A stretch of 64,000 bases of DNA, taken from contig JAETNR010000013.1 of the NCBI GenBank assembly GCA_021772055.1, positions 1 through 64,000 of the forward strand. Reading direction: 5' to 3'. The position numbers were made by a program, and so were the translations under genes. Under the pieces are notes generated by a model. It did not search any database. It saw only the letters and a list, made by a program, of their open reading frames with translations, and had not been told where the DNA came from. The DNA comes from Blautia sp. (GTDB lineage Bacteria > Bacillota > Clostridia > Lachnospirales > Lachnospiraceae). Positions 5,169 through 52,365 of the stretch are shown here, piece by piece; the first letter of the stretch is position 1; each line of letters starts with the position of its first letter.

Positions 5169-5317
5169 ATGTATTTCTCCTGATAAAACTGATAATCTGA
5201 AGTCTAGTTTAACAAATACTTATGAACTTTCTATGAATGTTTCTTTATTTTTTCCCTTTTATTTTACAAGTATCTCATACTTTCTCAAATCCCCTCATTT
5301 TTTCCGGCAGATTTCTC

Positions 5318-5417
5318 GCTACATTTCATGGGGTGGTGAAGGGAGGAACGTACGCCTGTCTATGTGGGCTGCATTTGCAGGAGCCCGTTCCTCCCTTCCA
5401 CCCACATAAAATGTAAC
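5318..5417. mobile_element. short MITE-like element, copy A, with 8-bp target duplication
   Basis: A 100-bp non-coding element whose ends are inverted repeats (GCTACATTTCATGGGGTGG on the left; GTTACATTTTATGTGGGTGG as complement of the right end), continuing with a GAAGGGAGGAACG arm. It is flanked by a perfect 8-bp direct repeat, GATTTCTC, at 5310-5317 and 5418-5425. Compared with copy B it lacks the centre and part of the right arm, so it is a deletion derivative. It fills much of the 356-base divergent gap between the HtrA-like gene and mutS2, together with the mutS2 promoter. No ORF is inside. Confidence 0.75.
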
Positions 5418-5444
5418 GATTTCTCCTTTCCAACAATTTTTTCC

Positions 5445-5473
5445 TTTTCAATATACTCCAAATCATGTAAAAT
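5445..5473 (+). promoter_or_regulatory. mutS2 promoter candidate
   Basis: TTTTCA (5445-5450), a 17-bp spacer and TAAAAT (5468-5473) lie about 50 bases upstream of the mutS2 start. The adjacent MITE-like element ends about 28 bases upstream of the -35 box. Confidence 0.5.
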
Positions 5474-5524
5474 GAATAGTAGAAAAAAACAAAACAGCAT
5501 TTTTTTTATCAATCAGGAGAAATC

Positions 5525-7903
5525 ATGAACACAAAAGCATTAAACGCATTAGAATATTACAAAATTATTCAGAAGCTTACGGATAAAGCCTCCTCCTCCA
5601 TGGGCAAGGAGCTTTGCAGGAAGCTCACCCCATACACAGACCTTGATCAGATTCGTTCCATGCAGACACAGACCAGGGATGCTTTAAGCCGTCTCTTTAA
5701 AAAAGGCAATCTCTCTTTCGGAAGCGTAAAGGACGTCCGGGGTTCCTTGAAACGTCTGGAGATCGGCAGTTCTCTTGGAATCGTGGAAATCCTTTCTATC
5801 TGCAGCCTGCTGGAGAATGTCAGCCGGGTAAAGGCTTACTCACGAAGTGACCGAAGCGATATGCCGGGGGATTCCTTGGACAGCCTGTTTGACTGCCTGG
5901 AGCCCCTTACGCCTCTCACAATGGAAATCCGCCGCTGCATCCTTTCGGAGGAGGAGCTGAGTGATGATGCAAGTCCCACCCTTCGCCAGATTCGAAGGGG
6001 AATGAAGCAGATCAATGACCGGATCCACACCCAGCTTTCCGGTATGCTGAACGGGGGCGCACGTACTTATCTGCAGGATTCTGTCATTACTATGCGCAAC
6101 GGCCGCTACTGTATTCCTGTAAAAGCAGAATACAAAGGTCAGGTTCCCGGCATGATCCATGACCAGTCTTCCACAGGCTCCACTCTTTTCATCGAGCCCA
6201 TGGCCATTGTAAAATTAAATAATGATATGCGCCAGTTAGAACTTGAGGAACAGAAAGAGATCGAAGTTATCCTTGCTTCCTTAAGTGAACAGATTGCCCT
6301 TGACAGGGAGGCTGTGGCACTTGACCTGGAAACCATGGTAGATCTGGACTTTATTTTTGCCCGCGCTTCTCTTGCCATGGAAATGAACGCCAGTGAACCC
6401 CTCTTTAATGAAGAAGGGCGCATTCATCTGAAAAAGGCCCGCCATCCTCTTATTGATAAGAAAAAAGCGGTTCCTATTGATGTACGCCTTGGGGAAGACT
6501 TCGACCTCCTTGTAGTAACAGGTCCCAATACCGGCGGCAAAACCGTTTCCCTGAAAACTGTGGGACTGCTTACCCTCATGGGACAGTCCGGGCTCCATAT
6601 TCCTGCAAATGACCGCTCCGATCTTGCTATTTTCCATGAAGTTTACGCGGATATCGGGGACGAACAGAGTATCGAGCAATCCTTAAGTACCTTCTCCTCT
6701 CATATGACCAATGTGGTGTCCTTTTTAAATAAGGCAGATGACCGTTCTCTGGTATTGTTTGACGAGCTTGGCGCAGGTACAGATCCCACGGAGGGCGCTG
6801 CCCTTGCCATTGCCATTCTCTCAAGCCTTCACGACCAGGGAATCCGCACAATGGCTACCACCCATTACAGCGAGCTGAAGGTTTACGCTCTTTCCACCCC
6901 CGGCGTGGAAAATGCCTGCTGTGAATTTGACGTGGAAACCCTTCGTCCCACTTACCGTCTGCTCATCGGCGTTCCCGGCAAGAGCAACGCATTTGCCATT
7001 TCCTCAAAACTTGGACTTCCGGATACGATCATCCAAAAGGCAAAGGAACAGATAAGCGAACAGGATGAGTCCTTTGAAGATGTACTTTCCTCCCTGGAAA
7101 ACAGCCGGGTCACCATTGAAAATGAGCGCAGGGAAGTGGAACGCTACAAAGAAGAAATCAAGCAGCTCAAAGAACAATTGGAAACCCAACAGGCAAAACT
7201 GGAAGAGCGCAAAGAACGCATGATCCGCCAGGCCAGCGAGGAAGCACACGCCATTCTGCGGGAAACCAAGGAATATGCAGACCAGACCATGAAGCTTTTC
7301 CACAAATTCCAGAAGGACCACGTAGACACTGCCGCAGTAGAAAAAGAGCGCCAGAATCTCCGTCAGCGCATGTCCAATGCAGAAAAAAATATCGTCCTGA
7401 AGCCTGAAACTAAAAAGCCCAAAAAAGAACTCACCCCCAAAGACCTGCGCCTTGGCGAGTCCGTGAAGGTTCTCAGCATGAACCTGAAAGGAACCGTCAG
7501 CAGTCATCCTGATTCCAAAGGGTATCTTTTCGTACAAATGGGAATTATCCGTTCCAAGGTCCATATTTCTGACCTGGAGCTTGCCGAAGAACCGTCAGTA
7601 ACCAGCCCGGCTCTTTCCCGTACAGGGGCAGGCAAAATACGCATGTCCAAATCATCCAGCATTTCCACAGAGATCAATCTTCTTGGGAAGACAGTGGATG
7701 AGGCTGTTGCAGAGCTGGACAAGTATCTGGATGACGCATACCTGGCGCATCTGAAATCCGTCCGGATCGTTCACGGCAAAGGCACCGGCGCCCTCAGAAA
7801 AGGGATCCACAATTACCTGCGCCATCAGAAGCATGTGGATTCCTTCCATCTTGCAGAGTTTGGCGAGGGAGACGCAGGCGTAACGATCGTGGACTTTAAA
7901 TAA
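5525..7903 (+). CDS. mutS2: MutS2 family ATPase/nuclease
   Basis: A MutS-family ATPase without the mismatch-recognition domain. MutS2 acts on recombination intermediates in some bacteria and on collided ribosomes in Bacillus; which applies here is unknown. Walker A is TGPNTGGKT (about 331-340), Walker B is LVLFDELGAGTDP, and a long charged coiled coil spans roughly 520-640. The C-terminal Smr nuclease domain (about 715-792) has HGKGTGALR; its usual DLRG/DLHG start reads INLLG. Length 792 is typical. The ATG follows AGGAGAAATC. It leads a plus-strand run with the two-component genes, which start 12 bases after its stop. Confidence 0.93.
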   Translation: MNTKALNALEYYKIIQKLTDKASSSMGKELCRKLTPYTDLDQIRSMQTQTRDALSRLFKKGNLSFGSVKDVRGSLKRLEIGSSLGIVEILSICSLLENVSRVKAYSRSDRSDMPGDSLDSLFDCLEPLTPLTMEIRRCILSEEELSDDASPTLRQIRRGMKQINDRIHTQLSGMLNGGARTYLQDSVITMRNGRYCIPVKAEYKGQVPGMIHDQSSTGSTLFIEPMAIVKLNNDMRQLELEEQKEIEVILASLSEQIALDREAVALDLETMVDLDFIFARASLAMEMNASEPLFNEEGRIHLKKARHPLIDKKKAVPIDVRLGEDFDLLVVTGPNTGGKTVSLKTVGLLTLMGQSGLHIPANDRSDLAIFHEVYADIGDEQSIEQSLSTFSSHMTNVVSFLNKADDRSLVLFDELGAGTDPTEGAALAIAILSSLHDQGIRTMATTHYSELKVYALSTPGVENACCEFDVETLRPTYRLLIGVPGKSNAFAISSKLGLPDTIIQKAKEQISEQDESFEDVLSSLENSRVTIENERREVERYKEEIKQLKEQLETQQAKLEERKERMIRQASEEAHAILRETKEYADQTMKLFHKFQKDHVDTAAVEKERQNLRQRMSNAEKNIVLKPETKKPKKELTPKDLRLGESVKVLSMNLKGTVSSHPDSKGYLFVQMGIIRSKVHISDLELAEEPSVTSPALSRTGAGKIRMSKSSSISTEINLLGKTVDEAVAELDKYLDDAYLAHLKSVRIVHGKGTGALRKGIHNYLRHQKHVDSFHLAEFGEGDAGVTIVDFK

Positions 7904-7915
7904 CAGGAGAATCAT

Positions 7916-8617
7916 ATGATTTCAAAACAGAAAATATTAATTGTAGATGATGATAATAATATTGCGGAACTGATTGCTCTGTACCTCACAAAAGAATGCT
8001 TTGAAACCAGGATCGTCAATGACGGGGAACAGGCACTTAAGGAATTTCAGATTTTTCAGCCCAATCTCATCCTTTTGGATCTGATGCTGCCGGGAATCGA
8101 CGGCTATCAGGTCTGCCGGGAGATCCGCCACGTCTCTGAAGTTCCCATTATCATGCTTTCCGCCAAAAGCGAAACCTTCGACAAAGTTCTCGGACTGGAA
8201 CTTGGAGCTGATGACTATATCATCAAGCCTTTCGATTCCAAAGAACTTGTGGCAAGAGTACGGGCTGTTCTGCGCCGTTTTAAAGTCAAACAGCCTGCAG
8301 CCGCATCCAACGAAAAAGCAGTCAGCTATCCGGATCTGACCATCAACCTGACCAATTATTCTGTAACTTATATGGGAAAAAGGGTAGATATGCCCCCCAA
8401 GGAGCTGGAGCTGCTTTATTTCCTTGCCGCCTCTCCCAACCAGGTCTTTACAAGGGAACAGCTTCTGGATCATATCTGGGGCTATGAATACATCGGAGAT
8501 ACCAGGACGGTGGACGTACATATTAAGCGCCTTCGCGAGAAGATCAAAGATCATCCCCGATGGAGCATTGCCACCGTGTGGGGCATCGGTTATAAATTCG
8601 AGGTGAAACGGGAATGA
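7916..8617 (+). CDS. OmpR/PhoB-family response regulator
   Basis: Cytoplasmic transcription regulator of 233 residues. The receiver domain (1-120) has the acidic pair at Asp11-Asp13, the phosphorylated Asp55 in LLDLMLPG and Lys104 in IIKPFD. A winged-helix domain (about 135-230) binds DNA, with the typical TRTVDVHIKRLREKI recognition region. The ATG has an AGGAG site. Its stop overlaps the kinase start by four bases (ATGA), so the two are translationally coupled and form a pair. The stimulus cannot be read from sequence. Confidence 0.93.
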   Translation: MISKQKILIVDDDNNIAELIALYLTKECFETRIVNDGEQALKEFQIFQPNLILLDLMLPGIDGYQVCREIRHVSEVPIIMLSAKSETFDKVLGLELGADDYIIKPFDSKELVARVRAVLRRFKVKQPAAASNEKAVSYPDLTINLTNYSVTYMGKRVDMPPKELELLYFLAASPNQVFTREQLLDHIWGYEYIGDTRTVDVHIKRLREKIKDHPRWSIATVWGIGYKFEVKRE

Positions 8618-10023
8618 AACAAAGCCTGTACAGAAAATTTCTTTTTCTCTATCTGTTGATCGGGCTGCTGGGATTTTTCAGCATTATCACTGCAGGTTCT
8701 TATCTCATAGAGAAACGGCTGGAAAAGACAGTCAGTGAAGGTCTTTACCGGGAAGCATGTCTTCTTGCTTCCGACAATACGATCCGAAGCGGAATTTCCT
8801 CTTCCAATCTGGAAAATATCCGCGAAACCCTGTCTGTCATTGCCGAATTCCAGAATTCCTTTATCTGGATCCTGAACAACAGCGGAGAAATCGTAACCAG
8901 CACCAGGAAAGATATTTCCCCCGATTCCCCTATTGATTTTACTACCTTTGACCCTGCACAGTGGGGAGGCAATTATTATCAGATTGGCAGTTTTTACGGG
9001 TACTTTTCCCAGGAATGCATGAGCGTTATTGCACCGATCACGGAAAATATGAGCACGAAAGGATATATCTGCATCCATTATCTTATGAGCAATCTTTATC
9101 ATGAGCGCAGCAATATCCTGACCGCCGTTTATCTTCTCTTTACTGTCTTTTATCTGATATCCGGCCTCATGGTGCTTTTTTACCGTTTTTATATTCACCG
9201 GCCGCTCTGGAAGATCATCAAAGGAGCGGGGGAATATGCAGGCGGAAATCTTTCCTACCGGATTTCACACAAATCGGAGGATGAACTTGGATACCTTGCC
9301 AATACTCTGAATTACATGACGGAAAAACTGAACCGGAACGGAGAATACCAGCGGAAATTCATTTCCAATGTCTCCCATGACTTCCGCTCTCCTCTCACTT
9401 CCATTAAGGGGTATGTGGAAGCCATGCTGGACGGTACCATTCCTCCTGAGATGCAGGAACGGTATCTGAAAATCATTGCTTATGAGGCAGGGCGGCTGGA
9501 AAAACTGACGAACAGTCTTCTGACATTAAATGACCTGGATATAAAAAAGAGAATGATGCATATCCGGAAATTTGACATTAATGAAGTGATCAAAACCACG
9601 GCAGCCACCTTCGAGGGCATCTGCACAGAGCGAAAGATTCTGCTGGAACTGGTTCTTTCCGGCAAAGAATTATATGCCAAAGCTGATATGGAACAGATTC
9701 AGCAGGTACTGTACAATTTGCTGGACAATGCCATCAAATTCAGCTATGACGGCTCTTCGATCATTCTGGAAACCACAGAAAAGAATGAGAAAATTTTTGT
9801 CTCTGTAAAAGACCGTGGGGAAGGCATCCCCAAAGAGTCCCTCTCCAAAATATGGGACCGTTTTTACAAAAGTGACGCCTCCCGGGGCAAAGACAGGAAA
9901 GGAACCGGCCTGGGCTTATCCATCGTACATGAAATTATCCATGCACATGGCCAGAATATCAATGTCATCAGCACGGAAGGCGTTGGAACGGAGTTCATTT
10001 TTACCCTGGATAAAGCCAAATGA
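8614..10023 (+). CDS. membrane sensor histidine kinase
   Basis: A 469-residue kinase partner of the upstream regulator. Two membrane segments (about 9-31 and 168-190) enclose a ~135-residue extracellular sensor region. A HAMP linker follows (about 190-245), then the phosphoacceptor domain with His255 in SNVSHDFRSP and an ATP-binding domain with N, G1 (DRGEGIP) and G2 (GTGLGLS) boxes. Its architecture resembles VanS/PhoR-type kinases of Firmicutes. It ends 13 bases from the convergent trmL stop, with no clear terminator between. Confidence 0.92.
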   Translation: MKQSLYRKFLFLYLLIGLLGFFSIITAGSYLIEKRLEKTVSEGLYREACLLASDNTIRSGISSSNLENIRETLSVIAEFQNSFIWILNNSGEIVTSTRKDISPDSPIDFTTFDPAQWGGNYYQIGSFYGYFSQECMSVIAPITENMSTKGYICIHYLMSNLYHERSNILTAVYLLFTVFYLISGLMVLFYRFYIHRPLWKIIKGAGEYAGGNLSYRISHKSEDELGYLANTLNYMTEKLNRNGEYQRKFISNVSHDFRSPLTSIKGYVEAMLDGTIPPEMQERYLKIIAYEAGRLEKLTNSLLTLNDLDIKKRMMHIRKFDINEVIKTTAATFEGICTERKILLELVLSGKELYAKADMEQIQQVLYNLLDNAIKFSYDGSSIILETTEKNEKIFVSVKDRGEGIPKESLSKIWDRFYKSDASRGKDRKGTGLGLSIVHEIIHAHGQNINVISTEGVGTEFIFTLDKAK

Positions 10024-10036
10024 TTTCCCGGATGCT

Positions 10037-10537
10037 TTATTTCCAGTCATACTTTGTCAAATGCCCCTCCAGGCGCATATGGTCAAAGTTATGCTGGCGC
10101 AGTGCCTCATAGAGAACAATTGCAACAGAGTTGCTTAAGTTTAAAGAACGGATATCTCCGATCATAGGGATCCGGATGCAGGTTGCCTGATTATTAAGAA
10201 GGATTTCCTCCGGGATCCCTGCACTTTCTTTCCCGAACATAATGTAGCAGTCATCCTCAAACTGCACATCCGTGTAGGCCTTTGGCGCCTTTGTGGTCGC
10301 ATAATAGATTTTCGCCCCTGGATTGTTTGCCAGAAAATCCTCATAATTCAGGTAATCTGTCACATCCAGATCTTTCCAGTAGTCCATGCCTGCCCTTTTA
10401 ATGGCTTTTTCATTCAGCTTAAACCCAAGGGGTTCGATAAGATGCAGTCTGGTGCCTGTGGCCACGCAGGTTCTGCCGATATTTCCCGTATTTGCCGGAA
10501 TCTCCGGCTCATGTAACACCACATTCAGTCTTGCCAT
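10037..10537 (-). CDS. trmL: tRNA (cytidine/uridine-34 2'-O) methyltransferase TrmL
   Basis: A compact 166-residue SPOUT-class methyltransferase that methylates the wobble ribose of certain leucine tRNAs. Family features: HEPEIPANTGNIGRTC at the N-terminus, FGKESAGIPEEIL in the middle, and the knot-forming RSLNLSNSVAIVLYEALRQ near the end. The length matches minimal TrmL (CspR). It follows the HypE-like gene on the minus strand with a 25-base gap and converges on the kinase gene. Confidence 0.92.
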   Translation of the reverse strand: MARLNVVLHEPEIPANTGNIGRTCVATGTRLHLIEPLGFKLNEKAIKRAGMDYWKDLDVTDYLNYEDFLANNPGAKIYYATTKAPKAYTDVQFEDDCYIMFGKESAGIPEEILLNNQATCIRIPMIGDIRSLNLSNSVAIVLYEALRQHNFDHMRLEGHLTKYDWK

Positions 10538-10562
10538 AATTCCTCCATTTTTCCGGCAGCCC

Positions 10563-11213
10563 TCAGACCTGCCGGATTTTTGTATACCATTTCATTTTAC
10601 AGATTTCATCGGCCTGGGGGCGATCCAGATATCTTAAGTTTTCGCCGCTGTACAGAATACGGTCGTTTCCATGGGTTGTCCGGCCAATGACTGCTGACGG
10701 AACACCCATTTTCTGAAATTCCTGTAAAAGGGCTTCCCCTCTTGGAATGCCGATCAGCACTGCCCCCTCTGACAGCAGATAATAGGGGTTCAGATCAAAA
10801 TGCTCACATATCTCAATCGTCTCCTGGCGGATGGGAATCCGGCGCAGATCCGCTGTAAGTCCGGTCTGAGAAGCCTCTGCCATTTTCCAGAGAGCACTTA
10901 AAATACCGCCCTCTCCCATGGCATAAAGGGCACTGGCGCCTGCGCTCCCGGCCATTTCCCGGATATCTTCCATATGTGCCTTCCCGGTGCTTTTGGCAGT
11001 TCTTTCTGTAATTCCGTATTCCTCCTCCAGCCGGACACAATGATAGAGAAACCCTTCCGAAAAATAGTTCCGAAGGAGTTCTGATTCCTTCTGCGCAATC
11101 AGCACCGTTCCTCTTAGAGCCACAGCTCCTGCCACCACCAGCTCATCTCCTGCGGAGAGCCTCCCGGTAATTTCCGCCTGAAGCTTCTCCATTGCCTCTT
11201 TTCCCAGCTTCAT
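10563..11213 (-). CDS. HypE/PurM C-terminal domain-like protein, half-length
   Basis: This 216-residue protein resembles the C-terminal half of the AIR synthase/HypE/ThiL superfamily: GDELVVAGAVALRG, the glycine-rich MGEGGILSALWKMAE, then LLSEGAVLIGIPRG. The N-terminal ATP-binding half is missing, so it should not be a full AIR synthase or HypE. Such half-proteins occur widely in Clostridia, and I know of no assigned function. The start follows AAAGGAG. The upstream neighbour is a 34-residue membrane protein gene 12 bases away, which is probably cotranscribed. Confidence 0.6.
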   Translation of the reverse strand: MKLGKEAMEKLQAEITGRLSAGDELVVAGAVALRGTVLIAQKESELLRNYFSEGFLYHCVRLEEEYGITERTAKSTGKAHMEDIREMAGSAGASALYAMGEGGILSALWKMAEASQTGLTADLRRIPIRQETIEICEHFDLNPYYLLSEGAVLIGIPRGEALLQEFQKMGVPSAVIGRTTHGNDRILYSGENLRYLDRPQADEICKMKWYTKIRQV

Positions 11214-11225
11214 GATCTGTCTCCT

Positions 11226-11330
11226 TTATAAGATCAAAGACAGTACGGCAGGCACTACCATCGCCAAAACCAGAACCACTGCAATCACAGCTGTTACAAC
11301 TTTACGCTTTTTTGGATCAAACATTCCCAT
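11226..11330 (-). CDS. 34-residue single-span membrane protein
   Basis: A short ORF with a GAGGTG ribosome binding site, starting MGMFDPKKRK. A basic cytoplasmic tip is followed by an unbroken hydrophobic helix (about residues 12-34, Val/Ala/Leu-rich with one Pro) that ends the protein. Its stop lies in the leader of the HypE-like gene, and it sits 36 bases downstream of the radical SAM gene. The clear start signal, the pattern and the operon position argue it is real. I do not recognise a named family. Confidence 0.6.
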   Translation of the reverse strand: MGMFDPKKRKVVTAVIAVVLVLAMVVPAVLSLIL

Positions 11331-11366
11331 TTTTTTCACCTCGTCTTATATTCTCTTATCTATTTC

Positions 11367-13079: not shown

Positions 13080-13100
13080 CTGCTCTTGTCTTCCTCCTCA

Positions 13101-13143
13101 AATAAGCTCTCTATGGCAGCGTTACCATAAAGAGCTTATTTTT
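13101..13143. terminator. 16-bp hairpin between trxA and the radical SAM gene
   Basis: AATAAGCTCTCTATGG (13101-13116) pairs with 13125-13140 with one G-T wobble and an 8-base loop. A T run follows on the plus strand, and only a short AT flank on the minus strand. It most likely ends the trxB-trxA transcript. Confidence 0.7.
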
Positions 13144-13159
13144 GTAATACAGCCGGATC

Positions 13160-13465
13160 TCAAATCTGATCCATCATATTCTTTAACTTTTCTTTCGGGG
13201 TAAGTCCTACCAAGCGTTCTGCTTCTTTCCCATTTTTGAATATAATCAATGTGGGAATATTCATAACTCCGTACTTCTGTGCAAGTGCGGTTTCTTTATC
13301 CACATCCACTTTTCCCACTGCATAGCCCTCCTCTGCAAGAGCCTCCACAATAGGACCCTGACGCATACACGGGCCGCACCAGGTTGCCCAGAAGTCCACC
13401 AGAACCGGTTTGTCGGATTTTAATACCTCTTCTTCAAAATTCTGTACTGTAATTGTTTTTGCCAT
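13160..13465 (-). CDS. trxA: thioredoxin
   Basis: A 101-residue cytoplasmic disulfide reductant with the standard WCGPC active site (Cys30, Cys33), preceded by VDFWATW, and the cis-Pro loop NIPTLIIFKNG. It lies 33 bases downstream of an atypical thioredoxin reductase on the same strand, which should be its electron donor. The ATG has AGGAG about eight bases upstream. Confidence 0.96.
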   Translation of the reverse strand: MAKTITVQNFEEEVLKSDKPVLVDFWATWCGPCMRQGPIVEALAEEGYAVGKVDVDKETALAQKYGVMNIPTLIIFKNGKEAERLVGLTPKEKLKNMMDQI

Positions 13466-13498
13466 GTTTATTCTCCTTTTCTATTTTTACGTTATTTA

Positions 13499-14404: not shown

Positions 14405-14499
14405 TTTTATCACTGCTCCCTTATTATTATACCGATTTTATCAGGCTATATCCATACTTTTCTTTACTATAGTATGATTTTTCTCTTTCATAGTAACAG

Positions 14500-14532
14500 A
14501 AAAGGACTGCATGTTCAACATACAATCCTTTT
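14500..14532 (-). terminator. glyA terminator
   Basis: AAAAGGACTGCATGTT (14500-14515) pairs with 14517-14532 through mostly Watson-Crick pairs with two wobbles; the tip opens to form the loop. On the minus strand the stem ends in TTTTC. It lies about 30 bases after the glyA stop. Confidence 0.55.
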
Positions 14533-14564
14533 TTCATGGAATTACTTTTTTTATCCGTTACATT

Positions 14565-15803: not shown

Positions 15804-15844
15804 GATTCATCCTCCTGTTATCCTTATATATAATCGCAAAGTCG

Positions 15845-15877: not shown

Positions 15878-15914
15878 AAAAAGACATTTGTCCGCACTGG
15901 GAAAATGTCTTTTT
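15878..15914. other. 12-bp hairpin abutting MITE copy B
   Basis: AAAAAGACATTT (15878-15889) pairs exactly with 15903-15914 across a 13-base loop. It looks like a terminator but lies just upstream of the glyA -35 box and touches the palindromic element. It may be the remnant of a terminator or part of the insertion site. Confidence 0.4.
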
Positions 15915-16173
15915 GGATATTTCACTGGGTGGGGAAGGGAGGAACGGACGCCTGTCTATGTGGGCTGCATTTGCAGGAGCCTTAGAAACAGTTTGTTTCC
16001 TGTGCTTCTGCGTTGTTCAGAAAATCCGTGCTGTCTGAGCCGTCAGGTGAGTTCACGGATTTTCTGGACGTTTTTAGCAGAAGTACAGGAAATTTACTGT
16101 TTCTTGTGCTCCGAAACCGCAGCCCACATAGACAGGCGTCCGTTCCTCCCTTCCCCACCCAGTGAAATATCCC
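15914..16173. mobile_element. full-length palindromic MITE-like element, copy B
   Basis: Nearly the whole element is one imperfect palindrome. The outer arms, 15916-15968 and 16119-16171, are a perfect 53-bp inverted repeat. Inside lie a second imperfect pair (around GAAACAG...CTTCTGC) and a perfect inner pair (CAGAAAATCCGTG, 16018-16030, with 16054-16066), all centred near 16043. Transcribed, it would fold into one long hairpin. The flanks (TCTTTTTG and CCTTTTTT) match at 6 of 8 positions, a possible decayed target duplication. No ORF or transposase is inside. It occupies most of the 471-base divergent gap between glyA and the alcohol dehydrogenase gene. Confidence 0.75.
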
Positions 16174-16201
16174 CCTTTTTTGAACTTTTTATGAATTCTT
16201 T

Positions 16202-16274: not shown

Positions 16275-17459
16275 ATGAGAAATTTTGAATATTATACTCC
16301 CACACGGGTTATTTTCGGTAAAGATACCCATTTACAGGTGGGAACACTTTTAAAAGAACAGGGATGTCAGAAAGTTCTTATCCACTATGGCGGAAACAGC
16401 GCAGTTCGTTCCGGACTTCTGGACGAGATCAAGGCAAGCCTTACGGATGCCGGAGTGGATTTTGTGACACTTGGAGGCGTAGTGCCCAATCCAAGACTTT
16501 CCAAAGTTCGTGAAGGAATGGAGCTTTGCCAAAAGGAAGGGGTGGATTTTCTCCTTGCTGTCGGAGGCGGCAGCGTGATCGATTCCTGTAAGGCCATCGG
16601 TTACGGCATTGCCAATCCATGGACAGATGTATGGAATTTCTTTTTGAAAACGGAGACGCCGAAAGACTGTCTCCCTATTGGAGCGGTTCTTACGATTGCC
16701 GCATCCGGAAGTGAAATGAGTAATTCCTGTGTGATTACCAATGAGGATGGCTGGCTGAAACGGGGCAGTATCAAGAGTGATCTCTGCAGGCCGAAGTTTG
16801 CCATCTTAAATCCCAAACTCACGTATACGCTTCCTCAATATCAGACGGAAAGCGGATGTGTGGATATTTTGATGCATACCATGGAAAGGTACTTTGTAAA
16901 TTTTGAAACAATGGAGATTACAGACAGTATCAGTGAGACGCTGATGCAGACCGTGATCTATAATGCGCGGATCCTGATGACAGAGCCACGCAATTATAAT
17001 GCAAGGGCTGAGATCATGTGGGCCGGCAGCCTCTCTCATAACGGACTTACCGGCTGCGGAACTGCAGGCGGCGACTGGGCATGTCATCAGCTGGAGCATG
17101 AGCTTGGCGGGATGTTCGATGTAGCTCATGGGGCCGGGCTTGCGGCGCTCTGGGGCAGCTGGGCACGGTATGTTTATCAGGAAAATCCGGAGCGGTTTGC
17201 TCAGTTTGCGGCGAATGTGTTTGATATTCCCTGCGGAACAGACTATGAGAAGACGGCACTGGCGGGGATCGAGGCTATGGAGGACTTTTTCAGGTCTGTG
17301 GAAATGCCTACGAATCTTGGGGAACTGGGGCTTAACCTTAGTGATGAGGTGATTCATGAGCTGGCTTTTAAGTGCAGCTTTGAGGATACCAGGACCATTG
17401 GGGGGATAAGGCAGTTGAATAGGAAAGACATGGAGAAGATTTATCTGATGGCTCGGTAG
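16275..17459 (+). CDS. iron-containing alcohol dehydrogenase, butanol dehydrogenase-like
   Basis: A 394-residue NAD(P)-dependent group III alcohol dehydrogenase, probably reducing fermentation aldehydes. The cofactor domain has GGGSVIDSCKAIGYG (about residues 97-111), and the metal site is formed by Asp/His residues including HTMERYF, CHQLEHELGG and FDVAHGAGLA. The N-terminus FEYYTPTRVIFGKD is typical of the YqdH/BDH branch. It has its own promoter and ends before a perfect 31-bp hairpin, so it appears monocistronic. Substrate and NADH versus NADPH preference cannot be settled by eye. Confidence 0.88.
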   Translation: MRNFEYYTPTRVIFGKDTHLQVGTLLKEQGCQKVLIHYGGNSAVRSGLLDEIKASLTDAGVDFVTLGGVVPNPRLSKVREGMELCQKEGVDFLLAVGGGSVIDSCKAIGYGIANPWTDVWNFFLKTETPKDCLPIGAVLTIAASGSEMSNSCVITNEDGWLKRGSIKSDLCRPKFAILNPKLTYTLPQYQTESGCVDILMHTMERYFVNFETMEITDSISETLMQTVIYNARILMTEPRNYNARAEIMWAGSLSHNGLTGCGTAGGDWACHQLEHELGGMFDVAHGAGLAALWGSWARYVYQENPERFAQFAANVFDIPCGTDYEKTALAGIEAMEDFFRSVEMPTNLGELGLNLSDEVIHELAFKCSFEDTRTIGGIRQLNRKDMEKIYLMAR

Positions 17460-17479: not shown

Positions 17480-17556
17480 GCCGAAAGCGTATGGGGGATG
17501 GAGGAGGGGCACCTGGGTGTATGGGGCCCCTCCTCCATCCCCCATACGCTTTCGGC
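17480..17556 (+). terminator. perfect 31-bp hairpin after the alcohol dehydrogenase gene
   Basis: Bases 17480-17510 are the exact reverse complement of 17526-17556, with a 15-base loop. The arms start GCCGAAAGCGTATGGGGG. The hairpin begins 21 bases after the stop and lacks a T run. It is far longer than a normal terminator, and its sequence is unrelated to the MITE family. Confidence 0.55.
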
Positions 17557-24036: not shown

Positions 24037-24109
24037 GCGATAGTGGCGTAGTTGGTAACGCGCGACCTTGCCAAGGTCGAGACCGCGGGTTCGAGCCCCG
24101 TCTATCGCT
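24037..24109 (+). tRNA. tRNA-Gly (anticodon GCC)
   Basis: A 73-base cloverleaf. The acceptor arm GCGATAG pairs with CTATCGC, the anticodon arm CGACC/GGTCG carries TTGCCAA with anticodon GCC, and the T arm holds GGTTCGAGCCCC. The CCA end is not encoded. It has its own promoter upstream and a terminator five bases downstream. Confidence 0.95.
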
Positions 24110-27796: not shown

Positions 27797-27832
27797 AAAA
27801 AAAACCTGGGCAGCCCGGTCAGGCTGCCCAGG
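27797..27832 (-). terminator. riboswitch-controlled terminator upstream of purO
   Basis: CCTGGGCAGCC (27822-27832 on the minus strand) pairs exactly with 27805-27815 and is followed by eight T. The 5' arm is the conserved 3' segment of the ZTP aptamer, so ligand binding should prevent the terminator from forming and switch the genes on. Confidence 0.9.
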
Positions 27833-27903
27833 CGGTCGGCACAATACTTCACTGCACTCCCTGTAGGTACTCCTACTTCCGCCAGTCATGCAGTTGCTGT
27901 GTT
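27826..27903 (-). ncRNA. ZTP riboswitch (pfl motif)
   Basis: The leader has the conserved pieces of the pfl motif: CATGACTGGCGG near the 5' end, a GTAGG/CCTAC helix, GGGAGTGCA, and the 3' signature GCCGACCGCCTGGGCA. The pfl RNA senses ZMP/ZTP, which accumulates when one-carbon units limit AICAR formylation. That fits control of the formylation and cyclisation genes right after it. Confidence 0.9.
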
Positions 27904-41768: not shown

Positions 41769-41815
41769 ATCCTTTATCTCCTTGTCATTCCTAAAAGTGT
41801 TTATGGTACGCACCC

Positions 41816-41844: not shown

Positions 41845-41853
41845 GTCGTTTTT

Positions 41854-43809: not shown

Positions 43810-43877
43810 TGATTTCCCTCTCTCTAAAAAATTCTTACCTATATAATAACATACTTTCCCCGATATTTATGTAAAAT

Positions 43878-43932
43878 CGTAACTATTCAGTAGGTAATAT
43901 CCCGCGAACTGTGAAGGTACTGAACAGTTACG
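43878..43932 (-). terminator. polC terminator overlapping its stop codon
   Basis: CGTAACTATTCAGTA (43878-43892) pairs with 43918-43932 with one mismatch. The TAA stop of polC (43928-43930) lies in the upstream arm. Confidence 0.55.
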
Positions 43933-46900: not shown

Positions 46901-48436
46901 AAAACGGTCTGTAATCGTCCCGTTTTCCACACGTACAGCCCCGATCTCAATAATTTTGCAGGTGAGAGGGGAAAAGCCGGTGGTCTCGATATCAAATACC
47001 ACGAAACTTCCGTCCAGGCTCTGTCCCTTGCTGTTGGTCACCATTCCCTTTAAATCATCTACCAGATAAGCCTCCATGCCATAGAGCACCTTAAAATCCG
47101 ATTCCTTTGGCACACATCCTCCCCAGGCATCAAAACAGTGATTGGCCTCCGGAAATGACTGGACAACCCCGTGGTCCGTAATGGCAATGGCCTTATGGCC
47201 CCATTCATAAGCACGCTTTACCAGCGCTTTGGCATCTGTCACACCGTCCATATCGCTCATTTTGGTGTGGCAGTGAAGCTCTACACGCTTCTGGGGGCTG
47301 GTATCTGTCCTGGTGCTTAAAAAGCTTGCAATCTTTTTTATTCCGTTTAAGGAGCCAATGGTCAGCTCGCTGTCAAAACGGTCGATGGTAGTGACGCCTT
47401 TCAGTTTCAGGAAGGCTCCTTTTTTGATGTGCTCCTTGATCTCCGGAACCTGCTCATTGCGCAGGAACATTTTTACAGTGATGCTGTCTGTAAAGTCCGT
47501 GACAGGAAAAATCAGGATGGTCTTTTCGTTTCTGATTTCTCTTGCCTCCACATCCATTACCTGGCAGCGGATGATCACCTCGCCCATTTCTCCTGTAATC
47601 GATTCCAGAGGAATGGCATCTCCTTCAAAATCCCTTCCATAGATCACATCCGGATTGGGATCTTTGTGGTAGCCGCGGAGTTCCCCTCTCTGCCCCTTCT
47701 TCTCAAAGGGCTTCTGGTCCTTCTTCGGTTCCTGGCTCTTCTCTGCCTTCGTTTCCTTAGAGGCTGCACCTTTCGTTTGCTTTTGAGCATCTTTCGTGCC
47801 TTCCGTTGCAGCATCCCCGCTTTGTTCCTCTGCCTGTCCCGCTGCCTCCGGACGGATCCTGGCATTTTTCAGAACATTTGCAACCTCCTGGCGGATCTGG
47901 AGCACCGCGTTTTTCCGGTACTGGCTTTCCTCTGTTTCCTCAAAATGCAGGTCTATCTTCAGATTCATGCCGCAGCGCTGGCAAAAAACCTTCTGGAGAT
48001 ATTCCACCAGGACCTGGCTCTTTTCCCTGGCAATCACAGAATCAGGCAGCACCAGAGTCATGACCTCCTCACTTGGAAAAGAAATCCTGGCACGTTTAAA
48101 CAGATTGTATTCCAACATATTATAATTCCGCAGCTCCACCTCCATACTGGAACGGTAGATCTCCAGAAAGTTGGCAGGGGTATACTGTTTGGAAAGATGG
48201 AAACGCTCGATCACCGTCACGCGCACATTCAGCCCGGGGAAACATTGTCGTTCAATCTGCTCCTCCAGAGCCAGAATATGCTTCTTGTGGATCCAGCGGT
48301 CACTTTTTAAATATACCCAGATCCTGGTTTTAGCAGGATTGCAGGAAACTCTTGTCACCTGGACCATGTCCAGCAATTCGGAAAGTTCTGTTTTCACTTT
48401 TATATTTGGAAATACATCAAAAAATTCCTTTTCCAT
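43928..48436 (-). CDS. polC: DNA polymerase III alpha subunit, Gram-positive PolC
   Basis: The replicative polymerase of Firmicutes with built-in proofreading. 1502 residues: an N-terminal domain (1-190), a Lys/Glu/Ala-rich linker (about 198-270), an OB-fold, a PHP domain (HCHTKMSDMDG, about 384), a DEDDh exonuclease (VFDIETTGFSP, about 478), and the polymerase core with a zinc knuckle (CDNCKYSD...CPKCGTKM, about 966-1000) and the catalytic PDIDLNFSGEYQ (about 1025). The linker is the least conserved part. The ATG begins one base after the ispG stop, with GGGAG, so the two are coupled. Confidence 0.98.
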   Translation of the reverse strand: MEKEFFDVFPNIKVKTELSELLDMVQVTRVSCNPAKTRIWVYLKSDRWIHKKHILALEEQIERQCFPGLNVRVTVIERFHLSKQYTPANFLEIYRSSMEVELRNYNMLEYNLFKRARISFPSEEVMTLVLPDSVIAREKSQVLVEYLQKVFCQRCGMNLKIDLHFEETEESQYRKNAVLQIRQEVANVLKNARIRPEAAGQAEEQSGDAATEGTKDAQKQTKGAASKETKAEKSQEPKKDQKPFEKKGQRGELRGYHKDPNPDVIYGRDFEGDAIPLESITGEMGEVIIRCQVMDVEAREIRNEKTILIFPVTDFTDSITVKMFLRNEQVPEIKEHIKKGAFLKLKGVTTIDRFDSELTIGSLNGIKKIASFLSTRTDTSPQKRVELHCHTKMSDMDGVTDAKALVKRAYEWGHKAIAITDHGVVQSFPEANHCFDAWGGCVPKESDFKVLYGMEAYLVDDLKGMVTNSKGQSLDGSFVVFDIETTGFSPLTCKIIEIGAVRVENGTITDRFSTFVNPKVPIPFRIEQLTSINDSMVMDAPPIEEVLPAFLKFCEGAVMVAHNADFDMSFIIENCNRLHIPNDFTYVDTVGMARFLLPALNRFKLDTVAKAVGVGLQHHHRAVDDAECTADIFVKFVSMLAERDILDVDELNRQGAVSVNTIKKLPTYHAIILVKNETGRINLYKLVSQSHLTYYHRRPRVPKSLFEKYKDGLIIGSACEAGELYQALLRNAPDTEIARLVNFYDYLEIQPLGNNRFMIADEKNDMVNSDEDLIALNKRIVKLGEQFKKPVVATCDVHFMDPQDEVYRRIIMAGNGFSDADDQAPLYLRTTEEMLEEFSYLGSEKAEEVVITNTNKIADMIEKISPIHPDKYPPIIENSDQDLKDICFRKAHEMYGEVLPKIVEERLEKELHSIISNGYAVMYIIAQKLVWKSNDDGYLVGSRGSVGSSLAATMAGITEVNPLPPHYICDNCKYSDFDSPEVKKYSGMAGCDMPDAICPKCGTKMTKAGFDIPFETFLGFKGDKEPDIDLNFSGEYQANAHKYTEVIFGKGQTFKAGTIGTLAEKTAFGYVKNYFEERGQHKRYCEINRIVAGCTGVRRTTGQHPGGIIVLPKGEEIEKFTPVQHPANDETSDITTTHFDYHSIDGNLLKLDILGHDDPTMIRMLEDLTGLDAKEVPLDQKDVMSLFASTDALGIRPEDIGGCKLGCLGVPEFGTDFAMQMLIDTKPKYFSDLVRIAGLAHGTDVWLGNAQTLIQEGKATISTAICTRDDIMIYLIHMGVESSLAFTIMESVRKGKGLRPEWEATMVEHNVPDWYIWSCKKIKYMFPKAHAAAYVMMAYRIAWFKVFKPLAYYAAFFSIRATAFSYETMCMGRERLEFYLAEIRKKGDSATKKEQDSIRDMRIVQEMYARGLEFMPIDLYKAKAHRFQIIDGKLMPSLDSIEGLGEKAADAVVEAAAKGKFLSKDDFRDRTKVSKTVIDLMDDLNLFGDIPQSNQMSLFDFT

Positions 48437-48437
48437 T

Positions 48438-49493
48438 CTAGTTCTCCCAATGAAGAAGTTCCTCTCGCAGAGTATCCAGAAGCTGCCCTTCCGGTACCTT
48501 TTTTACGATCTCTCCGCCTTTGATCAGAAGACCCACTCCAACGCCTCCGGCAATTCCGATGTCTGCTTCCTTCGCCTCTCCCGGTCCATTGACAACGCAT
48601 CCCATCACTGCTACTTTTATATCCAGCGGGATATCCTGTACCATGTCTTCTACTTTATTGGCAAGTCCAATGAGGTCAATCTGCGTACGTCCGCAGGTGG
48701 GGCAGGAAACGACTTCCACACCGCCCTTACGGAGTCCCAGGGTTTTCAGGATTCGTTTTGCTGATTTTATTTCTTCCAACGGAGCACCTGTCAAAGACAC
48801 CCGGATGGTATCCCCGATTCCCTGATTTAAGATAATGCCAAGTCCAATCGCAGATTTGATGTTGCCGGAATAAAGGGTTCCCGCCTCTGTGATCCCTACA
48901 TGCAGAGGATAAGCTGTTTTCTCCGCAATGATCTGATGGGCCCTGGCGCACATCAGGACATCGGAAGATTTGATGCTGATCACCAGATTATCGTAGCCTA
49001 AATCTTCAATGATCTTTACTTTGTCAAGAGCACTCTCCACAATGCCTTCTGCGGTAACGCCATGGTATTTTTCCACCAGTTCCTTCTCCAGAGAGCCACT
49101 GTTGACACCTACGCGAATGGGAATGTTACGCTCCTTTGCCACATCGACCACTGCCTTGATCCGCTCATGGCTTCCGATATTTCCCGGATTGATCCGGATT
49201 TTATCTGCACCGTTTTCCATGGCCGCAATGGCAAGACGGTAATCAAAATGAATGTCTGCAACCAGCGGGATATGAATCTGCTTTTTAATTTCCCCCAGTG
49301 CCCTGGCAGCTTCCATGGTGGGAACTGCGCAGCGGATGATCTCACAGCCTGCATGTTCCAGCGCCAGGATCTGTTCTGTCGTTGCCTGCACGTCCTCTGT
49401 TTTGGTATTGGTCATAGACTGGATCAGAATAGGGTTTCCTCCCCCGATCTTCCGGTCTCCGATCCGGATTACTTTTGTATGGTCTCTGTACAT
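48438..49493 (-). CDS. ispG: 4-hydroxy-3-methylbut-2-enyl-diphosphate synthase IspG (GcpE)
   Basis: Penultimate step of the MEP isoprenoid pathway, an Fe-S enzyme. About 351 residues with the TIM barrel start (NPILIQSMTNTKTEDV) and the cluster Cys residues in VSCPTCGRTQ and MGCVVNGPGEA. Of two ATGs two codons apart, the second (49493) has correct spacing to AGGAGGG. In many Clostridia dxr and rseP precede ispG; here the neighbour upstream is the telA gene, so that part of the cluster has moved or been lost from this spot. Cotranscribed with polC. Confidence 0.95.
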   Translation of the reverse strand: MYRDHTKVIRIGDRKIGGGNPILIQSMTNTKTEDVQATTEQILALEHAGCEIIRCAVPTMEAARALGEIKKQIHIPLVADIHFDYRLAIAAMENGADKIRINPGNIGSHERIKAVVDVAKERNIPIRVGVNSGSLEKELVEKYHGVTAEGIVESALDKVKIIEDLGYDNLVISIKSSDVLMCARAHQIIAEKTAYPLHVGITEAGTLYSGNIKSAIGLGIILNQGIGDTIRVSLTGAPLEEIKSAKRILKTLGLRKGGVEVVSCPTCGRTQIDLIGLANKVEDMVQDIPLDIKVAVMGCVVNGPGEAKEADIGIAGGVGVGLLIKGGEIVKKVPEGQLLDTLREELLHWEN

Positions 49494-49575
49494 TTCCATC
49501 CCTCCTGTTTTTCTATATATGGCCGAATGACAGCCAATTGCTCTGCGCTCTGGCTGCCGTCCGGGACTTTCCTAG

Positions 49576-49609
49576 TAAAAACGGGGCTGTTTTTTCTGTG
49601 CAGCCCCGT
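49576..49609 (-). terminator. telA terminator
   Basis: On the minus strand ACGGGGCTG (49601-49609) pairs with CAGCCCCGT (49581-49589) and is followed by TTTTACT, 14 bases past the telA stop. Confidence 0.8.
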
Positions 49610-49622
49610 GTAATCTCATATA

Positions 49623-50780
49623 TCAATGCTGGATCTCCAGCAGTTTATTCTTAAGGTCACTTTCCATCCGCGCCATTTCGGCTTCGGCTGCCTGACGTTT
49701 CTGTCTGCCCTCTCTCTGAATCTTCAGCACATCATCCAGGGTTGCGATCAGATCTGCATTGGTCTTTTTCAGGGTATCCATGTCGACAATTCCCCGCTCG
49801 GACTCTCTCGCTGTTTCTACGGATGCCATATGAAGGGCTTCCGCATTCTTACGTAAAAGCTCATTGGTCACATCTGTTACCTGGCGCTGTGCCTGGGCAG
49901 CTTCTGTGGAATGTGCGATTCCAAGAGCCAGTACCATCTGGCTTTTCCACAATGGAATGGTGTTTACAATGGTAGTCTGGATTTTTTCCACCATCATGGT
50001 GTCATTGTTCTGCACAAGGCGAATCTGGGGTGCTGTCTGCAGAGAAATCATTCTGGTCAGCTCCAGATCATGGATCTTTTTCTCAAAACGGTTGCATTTC
50101 TCATCCAGATCCTTGGCCGCCTGGGCATCCTCAGGAAGACCGCTCATTCTCGCCCGGTTCTCCAGCTCCATGAGTTTTCCTTTCCTGACTTCGGAGAGTT
50201 TCTTCTTCCCGGCCAGGATATACATGGAAAGTTCTTTAAAATAGCTGAGATTCTGCTGATACATCCTGTCCATCATGGCAGAATCCTTCATCAGACGGAC
50301 CTGATGCTTCTGCAGGGAATCCGTGATTTTTTCCACATTGGACTCTGCCTTGTCATAGCGAAGCTTCATAGCCTCAATCTTATTTGACTGTTTCTTAAAG
50401 AAACCGAACAGTCCCTTTTCTTCTTCTGCGTCAAAGCCTTTCAGCTCTACCACCACATTGGTGATCAGGTCGCCAACCTCCCCAAGGTCCTGGGAGCGGA
50501 CGCTGTTCAGCGCCTCATCTGAAAAGTCTGCCATTTTTTTCTGAGTTCCTGCGCCATACTGAAGAATCTGAGTGGTATTCTCAATGTCGATTTTTCCGGC
50601 GAAATCGTTTACCATCTGCTGCTCCTTTGGAGTGAGCACCATCTGTGCCATTTCCTTCTGAATAGGATCCATCTCCGGCTCCTCTTTCATTACAGGGGCG
50701 ATTTCCTCTTTGGGCTCATCAAGCTCCGGCTCCAGGGTCAGAACAGGGGCTGCTTCGAAATCCTTGAATTCTTCTGTCAT
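49623..50780 (-). CDS. telA: TelA-family (toxic anion resistance) protein
   Basis: A 385-residue soluble, mostly helical protein. An acidic N-terminus (1-50, ELDEPKEEIAP) precedes the TelA domain (about 60-380), with long coiled-coil stretches. Relatives are linked to tellurite resistance and to membrane or stress functions, but the mechanism is unknown. It follows an XpaC-like gene by 42 bases, a pairing common in Firmicutes. Confidence 0.88.
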   Translation of the reverse strand: MTEEFKDFEAAPVLTLEPELDEPKEEIAPVMKEEPEMDPIQKEMAQMVLTPKEQQMVNDFAGKIDIENTTQILQYGAGTQKKMADFSDEALNSVRSQDLGEVGDLITNVVVELKGFDAEEEKGLFGFFKKQSNKIEAMKLRYDKAESNVEKITDSLQKHQVRLMKDSAMMDRMYQQNLSYFKELSMYILAGKKKLSEVRKGKLMELENRARMSGLPEDAQAAKDLDEKCNRFEKKIHDLELTRMISLQTAPQIRLVQNNDTMMVEKIQTTIVNTIPLWKSQMVLALGIAHSTEAAQAQRQVTDVTNELLRKNAEALHMASVETARESERGIVDMDTLKKTNADLIATLDDVLKIQREGRQKRQAAEAEMARMESDLKNKLLEIQH

Positions 50781-50822
50781 AATCGTTCTCCTTCTTTACT
50801 TCAGTCCTCTTATTGTTTTCTC

Positions 50823-52052
50823 TTAACTTTTCAGATCAAAATCGCTGCCTGTCAGGCCCTCCTGGGCAAGCATGGTATGCAGCACCGAAATATCACTGGA
50901 AACATCCCACGCGGTATCCTGGAATATGGAATCCAGAAGTCTTGCAAAGGCATCGTTCAGGGTATCCAGGGTTTTCTCTATCTCCGCCTTGGAGCTTCGG
51001 ATATTTTCTCCCTGCACAGGCTGGCAGTCCATGTCCCCGTAGGCGTCCAGAAGCTTCACTGTCATGGGCAGATAATAATCCATCAGGCGCTTCAGATCCG
51101 GTATGATTTCCGGGTGGGACTCCGCACGATCAAAGATCCGCTCCACAATCTGCTCCATCCTGGATATTTTCGCAGAAATTTCTACCCCCGGAATGGCAGC
51201 ATTGCTCTCCCGGATCTTTTTCAGATAGCCGCTGCCTTTCTCAAGAACCTCCTGTACCTGGGGATCCCGTTTACTCTGCATCGTTTTTCGTTCTTCTTCC
51301 TGGACCTTTTTCATTTCCAGCTGTTTCTGGGATTCCTCATAAAGGCGAAAGGTCTCATTGGCTGTAATCAGACAGGTTTCCTGCTGATCTACATGACCTT
51401 CCAGGAACCATCCTTTCCTGATCATGCCTTTGATATCTTTACGGATATATTTTACAGACTTTCCCGTAATCCTGGACATCTGGTCAAAATTACAGTAGGT
51501 GTTGGTACCGAGGGCTTTTACATATTTGCGGAATCTGCCGATTCTGGCAAGACCTTTGCATCCGGATGCCAGCATGCTGCCGCCTGTCCCTGCCCCCAAA
51601 AGCATAATGGCGGATGGTATCAGATTGCTGCTTCCTAATAAAAGCTGAAATACCGTCAGCGTCAAAAATCCTACGACCATTCCTCCTGTGAGGATACCGC
51701 CAAATACCGTGCAGAGAATATGTTTTACTTTCTGTCCGGTGAGACTTTTGTACAGCTCCGGTCTGGCTTCCCAGGGCTCCAGTACCCGACCGCTGCTCCC
51801 TGCCGGTACACGGTCCGTACGTTCCGATGCGCTCCGGCTCCCGGGCGTACAGGCTGTTCTCCGGGAAGCGTATCTCTTTGGTTCTTCCCGCTCTTTCCTG
51901 GAATCCTGGTATTGGTTGATCGTGTTATTTACCGCCTGGGTGATGGTCTGATTCAGTTTCTGGTAGTTCTTGGTGTCTATTGCTGCTTCTATGATATCCT
52001 GGATCTTGTCCCCGATCTTTTCCAGATCATCCAGGCTGCGCCAATCGTCCAT
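50823..52052 (-). CDS. xpaC: XpaC-like membrane protein (5-bromo-4-chloroindolyl phosphate hydrolysis family)
   Basis: About 409 residues from MDDWRSLDDLEK at 52052, which follows GGAGGAAATC. A charged N-terminal region is followed by two close membrane segments (about 117-165, GGILTGGMVVGFLTLTVFQLL and the next stretch) and a helical C-terminal domain (about 190-400). The family name comes from a phenotype, not a proven enzyme activity. It is paired with telA, and the two probably act together at the membrane. Confidence 0.82.
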   Translation of the reverse strand: MDDWRSLDDLEKIGDKIQDIIEAAIDTKNYQKLNQTITQAVNNTINQYQDSRKEREEPKRYASRRTACTPGSRSASERTDRVPAGSSGRVLEPWEARPELYKSLTGQKVKHILCTVFGGILTGGMVVGFLTLTVFQLLLGSSNLIPSAIMLLGAGTGGSMLASGCKGLARIGRFRKYVKALGTNTYCNFDQMSRITGKSVKYIRKDIKGMIRKGWFLEGHVDQQETCLITANETFRLYEESQKQLEMKKVQEEERKTMQSKRDPQVQEVLEKGSGYLKKIRESNAAIPGVEISAKISRMEQIVERIFDRAESHPEIIPDLKRLMDYYLPMTVKLLDAYGDMDCQPVQGENIRSSKAEIEKTLDTLNDAFARLLDSIFQDTAWDVSSDISVLHTMLAQEGLTGSDFDLKS

Positions 52053-52159
52053 TGATTTCCTCCAATGTATTATCCTGATGTCAGTTTTTCTCAATTTCTT
52101 CTATTATAACGGAGGCCGGAAGAAAATACAAGAGATGGGATGCAGTAGAGGGTAAATTT

Positions 52160-52333
52160 ATTACATTTCTGCTAAAACCGTTCAGAAAATCCGTGAACTC
52201 GCCTGGAGGCTCAGACAGCACGGATTTTCTGAACAACGCAGAGATACAGGGAACAAACTGTTTCTAAGGCTCCTGCAAATGCAGCCCGTATAGACAGGTG
52301 CCCTTGCCTCCCGCCCCTCTCATGAAATGTAAC
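52160..52333. mobile_element. MITE-like element copy C, left arm deleted, with 8-bp target duplication
   Basis: A 174-bp element that matches the complement of copy B from its centre outward (AACAACGCAGAG, CTGTTTCTAAGGCTCCTGCA, CAGCCCGTATAGACAGG) and ends CATGAAATGTAAC. The left arm outside CTGCTAAAA is missing, but the end still reads TACATTT, giving TACATTT/AAATGTA termini. A perfect 8-bp direct repeat, GTAAATTT, flanks it at 52152-52159 and 52334-52341. It fills much of the 406-base divergent gap between xpaC and ilvE. No ORF is inside. Confidence 0.75.
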
Positions 52334-52365
52334 GTAAATTTTTTTATGAAAAAAGTAAGTTTTGA

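Follow-up and report, generated by a model that had tools for sequence, protein, structure and literature searches.

Palindromic elements with 8-bp target duplications in a Blautia genome and a wider hairpin family whose apex occurs across bacterial phyla

We analysed a window of 64,000 nucleotides of Blautia sp. (assembly GCA_021772055.1, contig JAETNR010000013.1, positions 1 to 64,000), in which three related non-coding elements, here called A, B and C, lie between genes. An earlier note on this DNA had described them. Their positions were borne out, the 8-bp duplications beside A and C are exact, and the strands of the ORFs confirmed that each of the three lies in a gap between divergent genes. 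All three elements are real, and a fourth related hairpin at 17480-17556 had been missed. At the gathering score, Rfam gave in the window only a tRNA gene at 24037-24109 (+) and a ZMP/ZTP riboswitch at 27819-27899 (-), and no family for the hairpin. The features of the elements are the following.

5310..5317, no strand: left target duplication of copy A, GATTTCTC; exact match to 5418-5425, single at the empty site of the relative G083
5318..5417, minus strand: copy A, a 100-bp MITE with ends GCTACATTTCATG / CATAAAATGTAAC and most of the core deleted; from direct reading and comparison with G083
5418..5425, no strand: right 8-bp target duplication of copy A, GATTTCTC; exact
15908..15915, no strand: left imperfect target duplication of copy B, TCTTTTTG; against the G083 empty site TGTCTTTTTAAAC
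15915..15968, plus strand: left arm of copy B, 54 nt; 100% complementary to 16119-16172
15964..16123, minus strand: imperfect conserved hairpin core of copy B, orientation a on the minus strand; model R1, 183.4 bits, E 6.1e-37
16119..16172, minus strand: right arm of copy B, 54 nt; perfect complement of the left arm
16175..16182, no strand: right imperfect target duplication of copy B, CTTTTTTG; against the G083 site
17480..17556, plus strand: fourth hairpin with a perfect 31-bp stem and ends GGGGAC/GCC...GGC/TGTTGATTGG, conserved core absent; hairpin scan against shuffles
52152..52159, no strand: left 8-bp target duplication of copy C, GTAAATTT; exact
52160..52333, plus strand: copy C, a 174-bp MITE; exact duplications and a core match of 110 bits
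52334..52341, no strand: right 8-bp target duplication of copy C, GTAAATTT; exact

Copy B is the most complete of the three. It had been read as nearly one palindrome with perfect outer arms of 53 bp; the palindrome stands, and the arms measure 54 nt with 100% complementarity. Its folding energy is -202.7 kcal/mol, compared with -79.4 +/- 5.1 kcal/mol for 200 shuffles, none of which folded as well. The termini of B have drifted and read GATATTTCAC in place of GTTACATTTCAC. B was one of the 21 rows from which model R1 was built. The proposal that A and C are internal-deletion derivatives also held: A has lost most of the core, and in C the left half of the hairpin is deleted while the right arm and part of the core remain. 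The fourth hairpin lies 20 nt past the stop codon of ORF 16275-17459, and its ends are those of a second, long-armed sort of copy described below, of which it is a coreless member. When the window was put through simple dinucleotide shuffling 20 times, no hairpin like it arose. Its sequence was absent behind the orthologous gene in all ten relatives examined; G083 and G080 carry different hairpins behind that gene, and the one in G080 starts with GGGGAC.

A search of 64 genus genomes (our own included) with the region of B led to G083 as the closest relative found, with 88% identity on one side of B and 84% on the other; the flanks of B are contiguous there. At the site of A in G083, the two flank matches overlap by exactly 8 bases and a single GATTTCTC is present. 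The site of B is empty and reads TGTCTTTTTAAAC. The element C is absent from G083, where its site is too diverged to be read as a clean empty site. These elements are genuine mobile elements that duplicate 8 target bases, imperfectly in the case of B. Since the genome holds 26 core loci and about 50 terminal-repeat sites above control, their likeness is not due to chance.

The terminal repeat GTTACATTTCAYG, with at most one mismatch, occurs at 60 sites in the genome against 11 for a reversed control. The same count in five relatives gave 7, 7, 6, 1 and 7 sites against controls of 9, 11, 5, 5 and 10, so that GTTACATTT ends stay close to the control in these genomes. The MITE is young and lineage-specific, and its spread in this lineage is recent. 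The fetched terminal-repeat sites represent elements of 24 to 280 bp, many of them coreless; among them are mini-elements of about 75 bp (C179:85117-85192, locus L223) and about 60 bp (C12:138384, locus L234), which share these ends and have exact duplications of 8 bp. When offsets of 1-2 bases were permitted, exact 8-bp duplications were tabulated at six sites (C, L223, L224, L227:3496, L234 and L012), 7 of 8 bases matched at L009, L230, L232 and L011, and 5 of 8 at L008; no convincing target duplication appeared in this table at L002 and L227:337. L033:2437 and a second reading of C were omitted from the table as chance, and copy A, whose exact duplication was read directly, stands outside it.

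The earlier note had proposed that a transposase moves these elements in trans. Two of the checks it had set turned out positive: the genome has other copies, and G083 lacks the elements. The third, the search for an IS that shares the end, found none. The ten ORFs beside terminal-repeat sites contain no transposase, eight belonging to ordinary Pfam families and two to none; the search for an IS is limited by the draft state of the assembly, which has 192 contigs. Movement in trans is therefore inferred. We know of no IS with the terminal repeat GTTACATTTCAYGGGG. The elements resemble the MITEs of IS families with 8-bp duplications in that they are short, gene-less, bounded by terminal inverted repeats, multi-copy and polymorphic. 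They differ from those MITEs in that some copies hold a conserved structured hairpin core. The pattern GTTACATTTCAYGGGGYRGGG was absent from viral contigs.

The earlier note had treated B as a MITE palindrome. B is a MITE, but its palindrome is not merely a by-product of this, and its core belongs to an older and much wider hairpin family, which in relatives ends in ACGGAC...TG. Using a covariance model, we found 26 core loci in the genome on the best strand and one more cut by a contig end. In the alignment of 21 own-genome cores, 22 of 56 pairs are doubly changed; with 33 cores from 13 genomes, 43 of 44 pairs are. The invariant columns are mainly unpaired and lie around TTTCG, GCTAA, GAACTC, GCTCARACAG and AACGC. 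The first model, made from own-genome cores, matched in 14 of 61 sampled genomes (our own included), 13 of them within the genus. The second model matched in at least 49 of 397 genomes and at least 43 of 334 genera sampled from the family. Of 398 genomes of the phylum, at least 12 matched, counting our own, and 10 of the 12 lie outside the family; the same apex was seen in 9 of these 10, L288 among them. Searches of more than 40 genomes used stricter filters and scored few candidates, and these counts are therefore lower bounds.

In relatives the hairpin commonly runs ACGGAC/G...C/TG and measures about 200-330 bp. The copies of our genome fall into two main sorts, one with GTTACATTT ends and one with longer arms and GGGGAC/GCC...GGC/TGG, and a few fit neither. 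The arms of the first sort contain ...GGAC/GCC... on the left and ...GGC/GTCC... on the right. One copy (L243, 2620-2840) has its core inverted relative to the ACGGAC...TG ends, which recombination of the arms could have produced. Core flipping was considered as a general feature and rejected, because only L243 remains when the strand of each hit is taken into account. A clean empty site was not obtained for a core hairpin lacking MITE ends, so the mobility of this layer rests on its patchy, gene-independent placement. For a Ralstonia copy as well, no empty site was obtained, the flanks lying on different contigs or in different places.

The exact 21-nt apex AAACTCGCTTCGCTCAGACAG was found at 120 loci or more. 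By record title, the apex occurs in hairpins of eight phyla: Bacillota, Bacteroidota, Pseudomonadota, Desulfobacterota with related groups, Nitrospirota and, with one metagenome-assembled record each and possible contamination, Acidobacteriota, Campylobacterota and Patescibacteria, where the tip stems have 8 or 9 bp. It is also carried by a Fusobacteriota plasmid. Enough flank was available for 125 instances; 103 of these form stems of at least 5 bp directly beside the 21-mer, and 85 form stems of at least 8 bp. When flanks were swapped, stems of at least 5 bp numbered 8.0 on average and 16 at most. There are 90 distinct left flanks, and stems were found in each of the seven groups tallied, with uneven misses (Bacteroidota 20/21, Nitrospirota 4/4, Desulfobacterota-like set 9/13). 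By its design, a scan with this 21-mer picks out GAA tips. By a simple pattern, the second internal loop GCTAA / TTAACGC was recognised in 21 of the 120 listed instances. Among the 5,426 genomes of an E. coli collection, a 45-base query had no match.

The repeat is very abundant in eight Ralstonia genomes, with 70-101 partial matches per genome to one query on either strand, and Noviherbaspirillum has it in inverted pairs with a fixed spacing of about 463 bp. The repeats at L374 5440-5790 and L312 6380-7000 and those of the Ralstonia and Noviherbaspirillum genomes are very abundant and dispersed, have an extra upstream hairpin of the AAAGAAAGT type and often form inverted pairs; the pair in L312 overlaps no ORF of more than 107 aa. 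In G877, one copy has its two flanks about 460 kb from each other, which recombination between repeats could have brought about.

In terms of genomic placement, we considered 50 hairpins from 24 other genomes, 49 of which have an upstream ORF. In 36 of these 49, the upstream ORF is on the same strand and the hairpin follows its stop codon, within 84 nt in 29 of the 36; in Clostridia the hairpin usually lies just past a stop codon. The same placement is weaker in the pan-bacterial set, at 65 of 110 (from 120 listed instances). Among the neighbouring ORFs clustered from the family and pan-bacterial sets, no transposase-like family and no integrase is recurrent, and the copies are dispersed rather than arrayed. 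ABC ATPases neighbour the hairpin at 9 pan-bacterial loci, the next two clusters are ORFs over the repeat itself, and each remaining cluster covers at most 3 loci; the family set shows few pairwise similarities.

We compared the two strands of the hairpin by their wobble pairs. On the gene strand, the consensus pairs have G-U in 1.4% and A-C in 2.4% of cells, compared with 6.3% and 2.8% in 6S RNA of the same genus (28 of 30 fetched sequences, two cut ones being dropped), which was the sole control family. On the reverse strand, with its own consensus structure, the hairpin has 7.1% G-U and 1.6% A-C (6.0% and 1.3% in the own-genome set); 6S RNA read backwards has 1.6% of each. These figures disfavour an RNA function of the gene strand and favour the bottom strand, where they do not separate DNA from RNA. 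Once matches with stems of less than 5 bp had been set aside (6 from relatives, 2 own), the bottom-strand tip had the form cGNAg or cGNNAg in 52 of the 66 copies left from relatives and in 16 of the 18 from our genome; the tips of relatives come from models trained on GAA-type tips. All four bases occur as N, and several of the GNNA loops are not GNRA (GTCA, GACA, GCCA, GCTA and GTTA). Where apices in the named loci deviate from the exact 21-mer, 27 of 29 still fit such a tip. For comparison, 24 other perfect hairpins with a closing C-G pair and loops of 3 or 4 nt were taken from the window and from 11 stretches of relatives in the genus, and none has it. Loops of the cGNAg and cGNNAg types are unusually stable in DNA. 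Of the two observations, the tip class is the stronger indication and points to folded DNA; a bottom-strand transcript fits the G-U test as well. A similar case is that of the GCGAAGC-type mini-hairpins, which are very stable as DNA, in that the bottom-strand tip is GC-GNA-GC in many copies; the papers found on those deal mostly with aptamers and tools, whereas here the tip belongs to a dispersed genomic repeat.

Taking these results together, we consider it probable that two layers are superimposed in this locus: A, B and C are recent MITEs, and the interior of B is an old dispersed hairpin that would act as folded single-stranded DNA. The outer layer is demonstrated by its ends, its duplications, its copy number, the empty sites and the near-control counts in five relatives. 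Its terminal repeats GTTACATTTCAYGGGG would be cut and joined in trans by a transposase, presumably of the DDE type, leaving the 8-bp duplications. The inner layer exists across the family and, judged by the apex, across many phyla; the stems vary freely and keep their complementarity, the internal loops and the tip hardly vary, and no gene is linked to it. The interior of B is one copy of this repeat, which in this genome also occurs without MITE ends. The recognised form may be a single folded DNA strand, the bottom one, with a very stable cGNAg or cGNNAg loop at its tip, and an enzyme encoded elsewhere may propagate or maintain it. For neither layer did we find a transposase or another enzyme that would mobilise it. 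In this lineage, one hairpin would have gained GTTACATTT ends on both arms and then spread as a MITE. Because ...GGAC/GCC...GGC/GTCC... lies inside the first-sort arms, the ends on both arms may have come from fold-back copying, in which the left flank of a second-sort hairpin was copied, inverted, onto the right.

Several points stand against the two-layer reading, among them the enzymes looked for and not found, the diverged site of C and the failure to obtain a clean empty site for the core. The wobble figures of the reverse strand speak against a pure DNA reading, templated correction from arm to arm could also keep the stems paired, and the same-strand placement after stop codons fits a role at the 3' end of an RNA. 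Alternatively, the core might be a structured RNA or a giant terminator near gene 3' ends, on either strand, that has been copied around and on which the MITE copies hitch-hike. This would explain the position of 36 of 49 hairpins, the T-runs that follow the hairpin in some relatives (TGTTTTTTGG), the many compensatory changes (43 of 44 pairs) and the 6S-like 7.1% G-U and 1.6% A-C of the bottom-strand structure. Of the traits of an intrinsic terminator, which would have a G+C-rich stem and then a run of T, a T-run is seen in several relatives and absent in others. However, gene-strand G-U pairs are rarer than in 6S RNA and not above A-C, the loop class fits DNA of the opposite strand with several GNNA loops that are not GNRA, the core of L243 is inverted against its ends, and Rfam has no family for the hairpin in the window at the gathering score; at permissive E-values, 15 loci gave only sub-threshold miRNA-type matches at the hairpins. 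We therefore regard an RNA or terminator as rather unlikely. The attC sites of integrons act as a folded bottom strand with sequence-free stems and fixed unpaired bases. The hairpins share with them stems that are free but paired, fixed unpaired bases and a favoured bottom strand, and they might be recombined in the same way; but the copies are scattered and form no arrays, the conserved part seems to be the tip rather than the ends, and no recurrent integrase neighbour was seen among the ORFs clustered. That they are attC-like sites is, in our view, very improbable. Still further from credible is the notion that the first-sort ends and their 8-mers are chance or ancestral repeats. The imperfect duplication of B and the lack of one at L002 and L227:337 would suit it, but the single 8-mer at the empty site in G083 refutes it for A, and the six tabulated exact duplications in addition to A, together with 60 sites against 11, contradict it elsewhere.

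The hairpin could also be a giant REP or BIME moved by a REP-associated Y1 tyrosine transposase, considering its extragenic placement, the GGAC tag at its 5' foot (ACGGAC/G...C/TG) and its inverted pairs, including those of Noviherbaspirillum at about 463 bp. Y1_Tnp is present in 11 of 14 core carriers and 14 of 20 named carriers, and the distance between an exact apex and a Y1 gene is 200 bp in L421 and about 1 kb in L429. On the other hand, Y1_Tnp is absent from 3 of the 14 core carriers (G014, G018 and G028, the last 99% complete with 20 core matches) and from 6 of the 20 named carriers, including Noviherbaspirillum with 12 aligned copies. In a first set of Y1 loci the hairpin was in the fetched flank of 1 of 30, and in a second set the exact apex was near 2 of 30, with a two-mismatch match in L425, some loci being cut by contig ends; the background was 2 pattern matches in 174 kb. 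We thus rejected the Y1 transposase as a general mobiliser, since carriers of both sets (3/14 and 6/20) lack it and it is mostly unlinked to the hairpins. A search of the literature by words or motif strings, in a scope mostly outside subscription journals and preprints and with part of PMC2267715, gave no description of the hairpin. The nearest published class is that of REP palindromes, from which it differs in tags, sizes and the RAYT link as described in PMC3733652. There, the tags are GTAG and CGTC, against GGAC here, the palindromes measure 20-40 bp and are linked to RAYTs, and GT pairs are frequent in GTAG repeats (PMC3733652). The hairpin resembles REPs, BIMEs and REPINs (PMC3733652) in being extragenic, in its foot tetranucleotide, in its inverted pairs, in having no gene of its own and in occurring in several phyla; it differs in measuring about 200-330 bp rather than 20-40 bp, in its GGAC foot, in that its conserved part is the tip with the internal loops, and in not being generally linked to Y1 genes. 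The CGTC-tagged REPs likewise have no dedicated transposase known, and their CCA tail is similar to the TGG/CCA foot here, but tag and tail are on other sides and the stems reach about 9 bp (PMC3733652). Overall, we judge a Y1-moved REP or BIME to be decidedly unlikely.

Returning to the two-layer reading, the MITE family by itself adds a new member to a known kind, and the hairpin that it contains is less expected. Records from Lachnospiraceae, Ralstonia, Bacteroides, Nitrospirae and a Fusobacteriota plasmid share an identical tip of 21 nt, with varied stems and no linked gene. Either an enzyme recognises the shape of the hairpin throughout bacteria, or such palindromes arise and persist through a host process that bacteria have in common; each option bears on the origin of REP-like repeats and of non-autonomous transposon ends. 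As a tentative and rather doubtful extension, these repeats might be a pan-bacterial class of DNA elements without genes, spreading and persisting in the form of one folded strand. Their fixed, very stable GNA tip (GCGNAGC, flanked by G.A pairs) and fixed internal loops would be recognised through their structure by a widely distributed host or mobile enzyme, and transposon ends might be born by fold-back copying of one flank.

We also looked at plasmids and viruses. B had no match among plasmids, and a Ralstonia copy had three partial matches there. The Acinetobacter baumannii plasmid pMAC (L471, 247-390) and similar plasmids carry short CGCTTCGCTC repeats that resemble part of the tip; as only this part is common to them, they were not counted as apex carriers. 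Two viral matches of the apex pattern (L125 and L133) were weak and were excluded. The exact sequence AACTCGCTNCGCTCARACAG occurs in 14 viral contigs, which represent phage or flanking host DNA. Among phages, B matched one record, MT837089.1, a 12.9-kb faecal phage with a core stretch of 72% identity at 3451-3604.
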